From contig JAGHUT010000007.1 in assembly GCA_018064645.1 (NCBI GenBank), positions 1-34,536 on the forward strand: a stretch of DNA of 34,536 bases, written 5' to 3'. The stretch is from Candidatus Crickella merdequi (GTDB taxonomy: Bacteria; Bacillota; Clostridia; Peptostreptococcales; Anaerovoracaceae). Shown here piece by piece: positions 4,258-29,883 of the stretch. A program made the position numbers and the translations under genes. Numbering within the stretch: the stretch's first letter is position 1; the number at the start of each line of letters is the position of its first letter. The notes under the pieces were generated by a model that was given only the letters and a program-made list of their open reading frames with translations, made no database searches and was not told where the DNA came from.

Positions 4258-4452
4258 TAAACACCTCTATAACTTTTTGTTTATTTATATATAACTTATG
4301 ATTTATAATCCTTGTGTATTCTACACCTTTATCTGCTAAAATCAAGGAGTTTTTGCGTCGCACTCTCATTTATCACGACAATGAACTTTCGATTTGTAGT
4401 ATAATTGATATAATTATGGGCTTATTTTTATTTGAACGACAAGGAGATATTA

Positions 4453-5931
4453 ATGTACCCATCAATCATTGAGAATCTTGCACATCATGCAATGACAAAC
4501 CCGGATAAGCTTTGCTTTGCTGACGAGCGCAAGGAACTTACATATAAGGAAACATGGGAGGCAATTTACGGCCTTTCAGAGGAACTGAAGGCACGTGGCA
4601 TCAGGAAGGATGACTGTGTTGTAATTGAATGTAACCAGAGTGCTGATTTCATGATTTTCGATCTTGCAATTCAGCTGGCGGGAGGTATATTCGTTCCACT
4701 TGAGAAGAATGTTGCACTTGCAAGAGCTGAAGAAATCGCAGGAGATACAGAAGCTGCCCTCTTCGTTGGCAAGAAGCCGCTTGAAGGATATGATTTTATG
4801 GAAATAGATGAAGCATGCAGCTATGCAGCATCACCGGCAGCACTTGAAGATGTAGCATTCCCGGATATCAACGATGTAGCGGAAATACTTTTCTCAACAG
4901 GTACTACAGGAAAAAGCAAGGGAATCGTCCTCACCCACAGAAGCAACATATCAATCGCAGAGAATGTATGCCAGGGTGTTAAGATGAAGGCTGACAACGT
5001 TGAGATGATTCCAATGCCAACAAGCCATTCACACGGACTTAGAAGAAGTTATGCCAACCTGGCTAACGGCAGCTCAGTAATATATATTGGAAAGATTACA
5101 CTTCTCAAGAAGCTTTTCAGCATGATGGACCAGTACGGTGTAACAAGCATGGACCTTTCACCAAGTATGCTTTCGATTATTTTCAAGCTCAGCAAGGACA
5201 AAATCGGAGAGTATGCTGATGTTATGGACTATGTTCAGCTGGGTTCTGCCCCACTCCCTGAGGAGGATAAGCAGCACCTTGCAAGACTTCTGCCTAATAC
5301 AAGACTGTATAATTTCTATGGAAGCACAGAAGCCGGCTGCTCATGCCTTCTTGACTTCAATGAGGCACCAGGCAAGAAAGGCTGCATCGGTAAGCCAGCA
5401 GTCAATTCAAAGTTCATCGTTGTTGATGAAAACCGAAAAGAAATTCAGTCATCACCGGATAACCTTGGATTCCTTGCAAGCACAGGTCCTATCAATATGA
5501 AGGAATATTACAAGGCGCCTGAGCTGACTAAGGAAGCTATGCCTGATGGAGATTACATTTACACTAAGGATCTTGGATATATTGATGAGAATGGCTATGT
5601 ATACATGCTTGGACGTAAAGACGATGTAATCAACTACGCCGGCATCAAAATCAGCCCTGAAGAGCTTGAATCTCTTATTGTAAAGAATCCGCTGATTAAA
5701 GACTGTGCTCTTGTTCCAGTGGATGACCCTCTTACAGGTCAGGCCCCTAAGCTGTATATCTCACTTGAGGACAGCACTAAAGATGAATACGATGTCAAGG
5801 CATTCAAGGTATTCCTCTCCGAGATTATCGATCAGAACAAGCAGCCTAAATACATTGAGATAATTGATGAGATTCCAAGAACATTCAACGGCAAGATTAT
5901 ACGTAAGAATCTCATTGCACTTAACAAATAG
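4453..5931 (+). CDS. AMP-dependent synthetase/ligase (acyl-CoA synthetase / adenylation enzyme)
   Basis: A3 motif ILFSTGTTGKSKGIVLTH; YNFYGSTEAG; YTKDLGYIDENGYVYMLGRKDDVINYAGIKISPEE; C-terminal PRTFNGKIIRKNL. ATG at 4453 follows AAGGAGATATTA; the ORF-track start at 4432 is a TTG. Confidence 0.92.
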   Translation: MYPSIIENLAHHAMTNPDKLCFADERKELTYKETWEAIYGLSEELKARGIRKDDCVVIECNQSADFMIFDLAIQLAGGIFVPLEKNVALARAEEIAGDTEAALFVGKKPLEGYDFMEIDEACSYAASPAALEDVAFPDINDVAEILFSTGTTGKSKGIVLTHRSNISIAENVCQGVKMKADNVEMIPMPTSHSHGLRRSYANLANGSSVIYIGKITLLKKLFSMMDQYGVTSMDLSPSMLSIIFKLSKDKIGEYADVMDYVQLGSAPLPEEDKQHLARLLPNTRLYNFYGSTEAGCSCLLDFNEAPGKKGCIGKPAVNSKFIVVDENRKEIQSSPDNLGFLASTGPINMKEYYKAPELTKEAMPDGDYIYTKDLGYIDENGYVYMLGRKDDVINYAGIKISPEELESLIVKNPLIKDCALVPVDDPLTGQAPKLYISLEDSTKDEYDVKAFKVFLSEIIDQNKQPKYIEIIDEIPRTFNGKIIRKNLIALNK

Positions 5932-27598: not shown

Positions 27599-28279
27599 TT
27601 ATTTAGCACCATACTGCTCATAATAAGCATCAATTGCAGCCTTAATCGTATCATCGATTACAACCCTTCCGCCGCACTCTTTGTTGTAAAGATACTCTGT
27701 TACCTCTGCCATGTCGACAATGGCATTTGTCTCAAAGCCATAGAGTTCCTGAACCTCATCAAGGGCACATTTAACGCCACCCTTTCCGACTTCCATTCTG
27801 TTGAGAGAAACCATGAGTCCAATGATTGTAACATCAGCAGCCTCTCTAACCTTTGGAACAGTCTCTTCCATTGACTTGCCTGAAGTTGTTACATCCTCAA
27901 TCATTACAACTCTGTCGCCATCCTGAAGAGCACTTCCAATGAAACCGCCCTTGTCAGCACCGTGGTCCTTAGCCTCTTTACGGTCTGAGCAGTATCTTAT
28001 CTCCTTGCCGTAGAGCTCGCTGAAAGCGATTGCTGTAACTACTGACAGAGGAATTCCCTTATATGCCGGTCCAAAGAGAACATCGAAATCAGTACCGTAC
28101 TTGCTGTAGATAGCCTTAGCATAATACTCGCCGAGTCTCTTGAGCTGTGAGCCTGTTACGTATGCTCCTGCGTTCATGAAAAATGGTGACTTACGACCGC
28201 TCTTAAGAGTGAAATCTCCAAACTTAAGCACGTCTGACTCTACCATAAACTCAATAAATTCCTGCTTATACTGTTCCAT
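27599..28279 (-). CDS. pyrE: Orotate phosphoribosyltransferase
   Basis: FTLKSGRKSPFFMNAGAYVTGSQL; VLFGPAYKGIPL; DRVVMIEDVTTSGKSMEETV PRPP motif. Confidence 0.95.
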   Translation of the reverse strand: MEQYKQEFIEFMVESDVLKFGDFTLKSGRKSPFFMNAGAYVTGSQLKRLGEYYAKAIYSKYGTDFDVLFGPAYKGIPLSVVTAIAFSELYGKEIRYCSDRKEAKDHGADKGGFIGSALQDGDRVVMIEDVTTSGKSMEETVPKVREAADVTIIGLMVSLNRMEVGKGGVKCALDEVQELYGFETNAIVDMAEVTEYLYNKECGGRVVIDDTIKAAIDAYYEQYGAK

Positions 28280-28341: not shown

Positions 28342-29715
28342 TTATAAAGACTCCAGAATATTTCTTGCCACATATACACCACTTGCGGAGGCGTGCGACA
28401 GAGAATGTGTAATTCCGCTTCCATCTCCGATGATGTACATACCCTTATAAGGAGACTCGAGATTCTCATCTACTTCAACCTCCATGTTATAGAACTTAAC
28501 CTCTACTCCATAGAGAAGTGTGTCATCATTGGCAGTTCCAGGGGCAACCTTATCAAGTGCATAAATCATCTCTACTATTCCGTCGAGAATTCTCTTTGGA
28601 AGTACAAGACTGAGATCTCCCGGAGTTGCATTAAGTGTAGGTGTGATAAAAGCCTCCTCGATTCTCTTCGGAGTTGATCTCTGTCCGCGAATGAGATCTC
28701 CAAATCGCTGAACTATTACTCCGCCTCCAAGCATGTTGCTCAGACGTGCAATTGATTCACCATAACCATTTGAATCCTTAAATGGTGCTGTGAATTTCTT
28801 AGAAACAAGAAGTGCGAAATTTGTATTCTCAGTCTGAAGTGCAGGATCCTCATAGCTGTGTCCGTTTACAGTAATAATTCCGTTAGTATTCTCGTTTACT
28901 ACGGCACCCTTTGGATTCATGCAGAAAGTACGAACCTTGTCCTCATACTTTTCTGTCCTGTACACAATTTTGCTCTCGTACAGCTCATCCGTCAGATGTG
29001 AGAAAACCTCTGCAGGAAGCTCAACTCTCACACCTATATCTACTCTGTTTGACTTAGTTGGAATCTCAAGGTCATTGCAGATATTCTCCATCCATTTAGA
29101 CCCAACACGTCCGACAGAAACAATAAGCTTATCACATGTATATTCACCATCAGCGCACTTTACAGCATAACCGTCCTCTATAACAGCAATAGCTTCAACC
29201 GGTGTATCAAAGAAGAATTCCACCTTATCCTTAAGCTCATTATAAAGATTACCGAGAACTATATAATTTACATCAGTTCCAAGGTGTCTTACTGAAGCAT
29301 CGAGAAGATGAAGGTCATTCTGAATGCACTCCTTCTTGAACTTGGAGCCTGCAGTTGTATAAAGCTTTGTTCCCTCCCCGCCATGATTCATGTTTATCTC
29401 ATCAACATAGTGCATAAGGTCCATTGCCTGCTTCTTGCCGATATACTCATAAAGTGTTCCGCCGAAATCATTTGTTATATTGTATTTACCATCAGAGAAT
29501 GCCCCTGCACCACCAAAACCGCTCATAATTGAACAGCTCTTGCAGCTGATGCATGATTTGATTTTGTCCCCATCAATAGGACACTTACGCTTCTCGAGTG
29601 CGTGACCTGCCTCGAATACAGCAACCTTCAGCTCCGGCTTCTTCTCCATAAGCTCATAAGCGGAAAAAATTCCGCCAGGACCTGCTCCAACAATTATTAC
29701 ATCATAATTCATCAT
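28342..29715 (-). CDS. FAD-dependent oxidoreductase/dehydrogenase (COG2509-like)
   Basis: N-terminal YDVIIVGAGPGGIFSAYEL; CPIDGDKIKSCISCKSCSIMSGFGGAGAFSDGKYN; C-terminal MYIIGDGSGITHSLSHASASG. Confidence 0.88.
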   Translation of the reverse strand: MMNYDVIIVGAGPGGIFSAYELMEKKPELKVAVFEAGHALEKRKCPIDGDKIKSCISCKSCSIMSGFGGAGAFSDGKYNITNDFGGTLYEYIGKKQAMDLMHYVDEINMNHGGEGTKLYTTAGSKFKKECIQNDLHLLDASVRHLGTDVNYIVLGNLYNELKDKVEFFFDTPVEAIAVIEDGYAVKCADGEYTCDKLIVSVGRVGSKWMENICNDLEIPTKSNRVDIGVRVELPAEVFSHLTDELYESKIVYRTEKYEDKVRTFCMNPKGAVVNENTNGIITVNGHSYEDPALQTENTNFALLVSKKFTAPFKDSNGYGESIARLSNMLGGGVIVQRFGDLIRGQRSTPKRIEEAFITPTLNATPGDLSLVLPKRILDGIVEMIYALDKVAPGTANDDTLLYGVEVKFYNMEVEVDENLESPYKGMYIIGDGSGITHSLSHASASGVYVARNILESL

Positions 29716-29746
29716 AATACCTCCAGATTAATACCCGTCAGCGCAT

Positions 29747-29784
29747 AAAAAACAGCTGACCACAAATATGCTTTGTAGTCAGCT
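29747..29784 (-). terminator. Riboswitch expression platform: intrinsic terminator sharing the 3' half of the aptamer
   Basis: Minus strand AGCTGACTACAAA-GCATA-TTTGTGGTCAGCT-GTTTTTT, a 13-bp stem with one G-U. Confidence 0.85.
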
Positions 29785-29836
29785 ATTATCGGTAGCTGGT
29801 AGAAACGCTCGACCGTATTTCGAGCATATACAAAAG
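29771..29836 (-). promoter_or_regulatory. Purine riboswitch aptamer, guanine class (C at the J3/1 specificity position)
   Basis: Minus strand: TTTTGTA-TAT-GCTCGA-AATACGG-TCGAGC-GTTTCTACC-AGCTA-CCGATAA-TAGCT-GAC-TACAAA; P2 6 bp/7-nt loop, P3 5 bp/7-nt loop, L2 GG to L3 CC kissing, J2/3 UUUCUACC-type core. Confidence 0.93.
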
Positions 29837-29854: not shown

Positions 29855-29883
29855 AGTATACTCAAATGCCATTTGTTATGCAA
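29855..29883 (-). promoter_or_regulatory. Sigma-A-type promoter for the riboswitch transcript
   Basis: Minus strand TTGCAT-17 bp-TATACT, about 20 nt upstream of the aptamer. Confidence 0.8.

Follow-up and report, generated by a model that had tools for sequence, protein, structure and literature searches.

A putative guanine-activated riboswitch upstream of a VP0956-like flavoprotein gene in Candidatus Crickella merdequi

The window, i.e. the whole stretch of 34,536 nucleotides of Candidatus Crickella merdequi DNA that we analysed, carries on its minus strand a gene for a VP0956-like FAD-dependent flavoprotein of 457 residues (positions 28342-29715), preceded by a ribosome binding site, GGAGG, at 29720-29724. 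Upstream of this gene and on the same strand, cmscan detected a purine (guanine-I) riboswitch aptamer at 29853-29756, which covers the full RF00167 model (1-102) with a score of 63.8 bits (E 4.6e-9; gathering threshold 37) and is the sole Rfam match of the window. No second RF00167 match was found across the 1.6-Mb, 92%-complete genome. A weak candidate sigma-70 promoter, TTGCAT-17-TATACT (29855-29883, minus strand), was identified by eye; its first hexamer has three of six matches, under the threshold of the promoter scan. The pyrE gene, coding for orotate phosphoribosyltransferase (27599-28279, minus strand; TIGR00336), starts 62 bp downstream of the flavoprotein gene and is possibly the second gene of the riboswitch transcript.

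The flavoprotein was assigned to the VP0956-like proteins on the basis of its FAD-binding Rossmann domain (Pyr_redox_2), its C-terminal PF21688 domain and its fold. This agrees with the first-pass annotation, which had called it a COG2509-like FAD-dependent oxidoreductase; COG2509 is what we take to be the name of its family. The closest solved structure, both by sequence (E 7.4e-15) and by fold (TM 0.76, E 6.7e-22), is 3NLC (VP0956), deposited as an uncharacterized protein. Four cysteines, C45, C55, C58 and C61, are invariant in 69 orthologues that are 60-85% identical to the window protein, and they might form a metal (Fe-S) site. The structure model is poor in that region (pLDDT < 70 for residues 41-70) and thus cannot tell whether such a site forms. 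When 250 genomes of the window's family were sampled, 189 had a close homologue. In four related loci (L043, L044, L069 and L072), an antisense open frame of 465-545 residues exceeds the length of the flavoprotein gene, a trap for gene callers.

We re-read each element of the aptamer on the minus strand. All the conserved elements of a purine aptamer are present, as had been claimed from the sequence, and the covariance model score is well above the gathering threshold. The core (P1-P2-P3), delineated by sequence and covariation, spans 29771-29835; the earlier coordinates, 29771-29836, are correct for it. It consists of P1 (7 bp, 29835-29829/29777-29771), P2 (29825-29820/29812-29807) with loop L2 (AATACGG, 29819-29813), J2/3 (GTTTCTAC, 29806-29799), P3 (29798-29793/29785-29780) with loop L3 (CCGATAA, 29792-29786), and J3/1, in which A73 corresponds to A29779 and C74 to C29778, the latter as previously noted. 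The L2 and L3 loops can form the GG/CC contact, and the three-way junction with its J1/2, J2/3 and J3/1 segments is that of RF00167. The sole departure from the consensus, a small one, is in J1/2, which reads UAU vs UAA in xpt (nucleotide 24 is a U); U24 occurs in seven of the 14 aligned members, including the window. The presence of C74, U22, U47 and U51 and the absence of junction insertions place the aptamer in the guanine-I class. The adenine class requires U74 and was rejected because of the C at 29778. Guanine-II and xanthine-II riboswitches have junction insertions, and the latter also a U51G change (PMC9295807). Both were rejected, as the junctions are free of insertions, including in J2/3 (GUUUCUAC), and U51 is retained. 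Guanine is therefore the predicted ligand, on the strength of C74 and the core alone.

An intrinsic terminator hairpin of 16 pairs (-21.8 kcal/mol) was found independently at 29751-29787 on the minus strand, and covariation supports it. It has the form AATAGCTGACTACAAA-GCATA-TTTGTGGTCAGCTGTT followed by T4; together with the last two residues of the stem, this makes six consecutive T (29747-29752). The 5' arm of the terminator, 29787-29772, draws on three aptamer segments, namely the P3 3' strand, J3/1 (which includes C74) and the P1 3' strand. The Bacillus subtilis pbuE adenine riboswitch is an ON switch whose terminator overlaps P1, and the overlap of the terminator arm with the 3' strands of the aptamer, nucleotide 74 included, is of this type. 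In a transcript stopping at P1, the aptamer fold (-18.3 kcal/mol) is also the free MFE structure. Once the 3' arm is transcribed, the terminator conformation is better than the aptamer by 14.2 kcal/mol, and the MFE fold of the leader is the long terminator hairpin without a complete aptamer. As A73-C74 and the 3' strands of P3 and P1 belong to both the terminator and the aptamer, the two structures are mutually exclusive, and guanine is hence predicted to switch the gene ON in a pbuE-like manner, whereas guanine switches usually turn their gene OFF. The first-pass reading of a guanine-class aptamer in front of the flavoprotein gene holds, but it mentioned neither the terminator with its predicted ON architecture nor the pyrE gene 62 bp behind.

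To follow the association across relatives, we used the 80 closest orthologous loci, drawn from one-per-species genomes and amounting to 472 kb. RF00167 matches at or above the gathering threshold are present in ten of them (L019, L042, L043, L047, L054, L067, L068, L069, L074 and L075), in all cases immediately 5' of the flavoprotein gene and in its orientation; the model has no match elsewhere in these 472 kb. The aptamer is likewise paired with the flavoprotein gene in genome G073 (locus L098). Most flavoprotein orthologues nevertheless have no riboswitch, and it adjoins the gene in only two of the 250 sampled genomes of the family. A combined aptamer and terminator model gave 65-98 bits for the ten loci, L044, L072, the window and G073; as it was built from the members themselves, these scores are high by construction, and the informative feature is the gap to all other sites in those loci, which remain below 20 bits. 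In a sample of 246 genomes from the class, this model gives more than 60 bits solely for the window and G073, the next score being 54.

Both structures are conserved in the aligned homologues. Of the 14 members, 13 have the C74-overlapping hairpin, with C74 and the 3' strands of P3 and P1 in its 5' arm and in most cases a U-rich tail behind it. In the aptamer helices, 90% of the cells are paired, with two-sided changes at 14 of 19 pairs, and pairing drops to 30-39% when the helices are slid by one to three columns. The corresponding values for the terminator helix are 83% and 8 of 16 pairs. For both structures together, pairing falls to 25-52% in the slid-helix controls, some excess over these controls being expected because a single member served to define the two structures. 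Nucleotide 73 covaries with its partner in the terminator, as A-U in ten members, U-A in L042 and G-C in L072.

Some members deviate from this scheme. The terminator is absent from L043, the 5' strand of P2 from L044 and a clear U tract behind the hairpin from L042; L044 and L072 are degenerate and score below the RF00167 gathering threshold. In L043 (2380-2500), which has the same aptamer, the P1 3' strand could pair with the Shine-Dalgarno region, which hints at translational control. The L072 element (2370-2480) is strongly drifted (G46U, U49G, A52G with A73G) and keeps the overlapping terminator; its ligand may differ. In L042 (2325-2422), L173 and L202, U73 replaces A73 (GTCTA) with C74 kept, and the binding pocket is possibly altered.

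As a control, the same terminator finder was applied to purine riboswitch loci of relatives, including 91 C74 loci (duplicate entries counted), a score of 20 or more defining a strong C74-overlapping terminator. Among these 91 loci, such terminators were found only in those linked to the flavoprotein gene and in L204, all others scoring 12.5 or less. The overlap is absent from the guanine switches preceding xpt in the window's own family, and the adenine-type (U74) switches L164 and L166 have strong overlapping terminators, as expected. L204 (1501-1620) is a second C74 switch in the genome of L068, located before a gene for a 93-residue membrane protein that is presumably YgjV-like, which suggests that use of the ON module extends to other genes. 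Weak RF00167 matches also precede genes of another branch of the flavoprotein family, in L099 (720-835, 39.7 bits) and L100 (1501-1614, 37.9 bits); in the latter, a gene for a 202-residue protein without a Pfam match sits between the aptamer and the flavoprotein gene. The two were rejected as members of the ON group, since they do not have its layout and look rather OFF-like. They represent a second, separate link between purine aptamers and this flavoprotein family.

We also analysed the genes adjacent to the flavoprotein gene. In the 80 loci they are mostly unconserved, with the striking exception of xpt (identified by TIGR01744/NF006671), found on the same strand with a gap of less than 60 bp in ten loci (L005, L014, L027, L032, L034, L036, L040, L046, L059 and L076), as well as in L206 and L207. 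The gene order is pbuX-xpt-FAD in L027, L034 and L206, and pbuX alone directly precedes the flavoprotein gene in L065. With about one xpt gene per roughly 2000 genes, we estimate that chance would give ~0.1 xpt neighbours in 80 loci. The ten loci are related and hence not independent, yet they include at least three different arrangements; the xpt operons fall largely within a single region of the tree, so that their count overstates the number of independent events. The riboswitch and xpt were not found together beside the flavoprotein gene in any locus examined, and the purine role thus rests on two separate context signals. The proposal, made in the first-pass annotation, that the flavoprotein has a purine-linked role is supported by the recurrence of the riboswitch-gene pair and, where the riboswitch is missing, by the xpt and pbuX operons. 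The window's genome has xpt and pbuX grouped on a different contig (C30), where no riboswitch accompanies them.

Two further features of the riboswitch loci were noted. A gene for a fusion of an NT5C nucleotidase and a guanylate-kinase-like domain is divergent from the flavoprotein gene in L054 (6-1124), L069 (1066-2184) and L074 (1052-2173); among the loci examined, only riboswitch-bearing ones have it. L075 harbours a tandem pair of TPP riboswitch aptamers ~40 bases apart (4353-4612).

In the protein tree, built by a quick method and with many open forks, the riboswitch-bearing sequences are scattered, and several branch close to the base of the main clade. The protein of L206, from the pbuX-xpt-FAD operon, groups with that of the window (98% SH-aLRT). 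This pattern is consistent with an ancient riboswitch that was lost or replaced on many occasions; repeated gain is also conceivable.

The combination of a guanine-I aptamer and a pbuE-type platform probably constitutes a guanine-activated transcriptional ON switch for a flavoprotein linked to purine-base use. Guanine would capture the three-way junction as the polymerase leaves the aptamer, holding P1 and P3 in place; hypoxanthine and xanthine may act as alternative ligands, less well than guanine. Without ligand, A73-C74 and the 3' strands of P1 and P3 would be drawn by the downstream arm into the terminator, and transcription would end ahead of the start codon. As guanine would prevent termination, the flavoprotein would be made when guanine is abundant, and together with Xpt and PbuX it most likely acts in purine-base use, performing or assisting a redox step. 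More tentatively, the flavoprotein branch with the four cysteines and their possible Fe-S site may represent a redox enzyme of anaerobic gut Clostridia that has so far gone unrecognised and acts in the salvage or breakdown of purine bases. Guanine would induce it via the ON guanine-I riboswitch in one region of the tree, and pbuX-xpt operons would encode it in another.

The opposite regulation, in which guanine would repress the flavoprotein as it does for xpt and pbuX, would be in line with the prevalence of OFF switches among guanine riboswitches (PMC9295807, PMC11477304) and with the switches devoid of overlap ahead of xpt in the same family. However, C74 and the 3' strand of P1 are part of the sole terminator, so that ligand binding must oppose termination, no separate antiterminator/terminator pair lies between the aptamer and the start codon, and the overlapping layout is kept in all but one of the 14 members. 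An ordinary OFF switch was rejected on this architecture and appears very unlikely. A drift of the aptamer towards another ligand, such as xanthine, 2'-deoxyguanosine or a modified purine, is unlikely too. The new kind of target, the recurrent U24 in J1/2, the core changes of L042 and L072 and the existence of related variants with new ligands (PMC9295807) speak for it, but U22, U47, U51, A52, A73 and C74 are standard guanine-I residues in the window and most members, and J2/3 and J3/1 have no insertions of the xanthine-II or guanine-II type.

We regard it as highly improbable that pyrE is the real target, for purine-to-pyrimidine balancing, with the flavoprotein as a passenger. The proximity of pyrE on the same strand is compatible with this, but pyrE does not adjoin the flavoprotein gene in any of the 80 orthologous loci or of 60 further loci, whereas the riboswitch keeps its place before the flavoprotein gene, and pyrE was rejected as a conserved target. 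The gap before pyrE also contains a promoter-like TTTATA-18-TAGAAT, although one is expected by chance. Finally, the degenerate elements of L044 and L072 and the many orthologues without a riboswitch might indicate a non-functional relic or a chance juxtaposition. The conserved core, the covariation in both structures and the identical placement of all ten matches make this scarcely credible.

The aptamer is of a known class, its predicted ON platform is uncommon in guanine switches, and its target is of a new kind. A search of the open literature yielded no prior link of this flavoprotein gene group to any riboswitch, which is weak evidence of absence. The flavoprotein's putative link to purines is supported by independent evidence from operons. 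A widespread orphan flavoprotein thereby gains a first testable physiological context, with guanine as the likely signal and Xpt and PbuX as likely partners. A conserved natural guanine-I aptamer apparently coupled to an ON platform, a combination seldom seen in the guanine switches examined, would mean that aptamer class and switching direction are exchanged over evolutionary time, and that finding a guanine switch ahead of an odd gene can signify induction instead of repression.

Comparison with known systems places these features in context. The window flavoprotein is about 20% identical to VP0956 (3NLC), in which no cysteines align with its Cys-x9-Cys-x2-Cys-x2-Cys segment. With guanine-I riboswitches of the xpt type, the window element shares the three-way junction, the L2-L3 contact, J2/3 (GUUUCUAC) and C74; in contrast, their platform is OFF rather than ON as predicted here, and they control salvage, transport and biosynthesis genes rather than a flavoprotein gene. 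The pbuE riboswitch is alike in the terminator 5' arm drawn from the 3' side of the aptamer and in the ligand blocking termination, as predicted here, but it has U74, belongs to the adenine class and controls another gene. The guanine-II riboswitches of Paenibacillus, which have junction insertions and mostly precede phosphoribosyltransferase genes, also sense guanine and are predicted to be ON switches (PMC9295807); they resemble the window element in the predicted ligand and direction and differ from it in their insertions, target and clade. Xanthine-II riboswitches are ON switches ahead of purine-related oxidative genes (PMC9295807). Although their U51G change and junction insertions are absent from the window, they are alike in the ON layout before a purine-related oxidative gene that we predict here.
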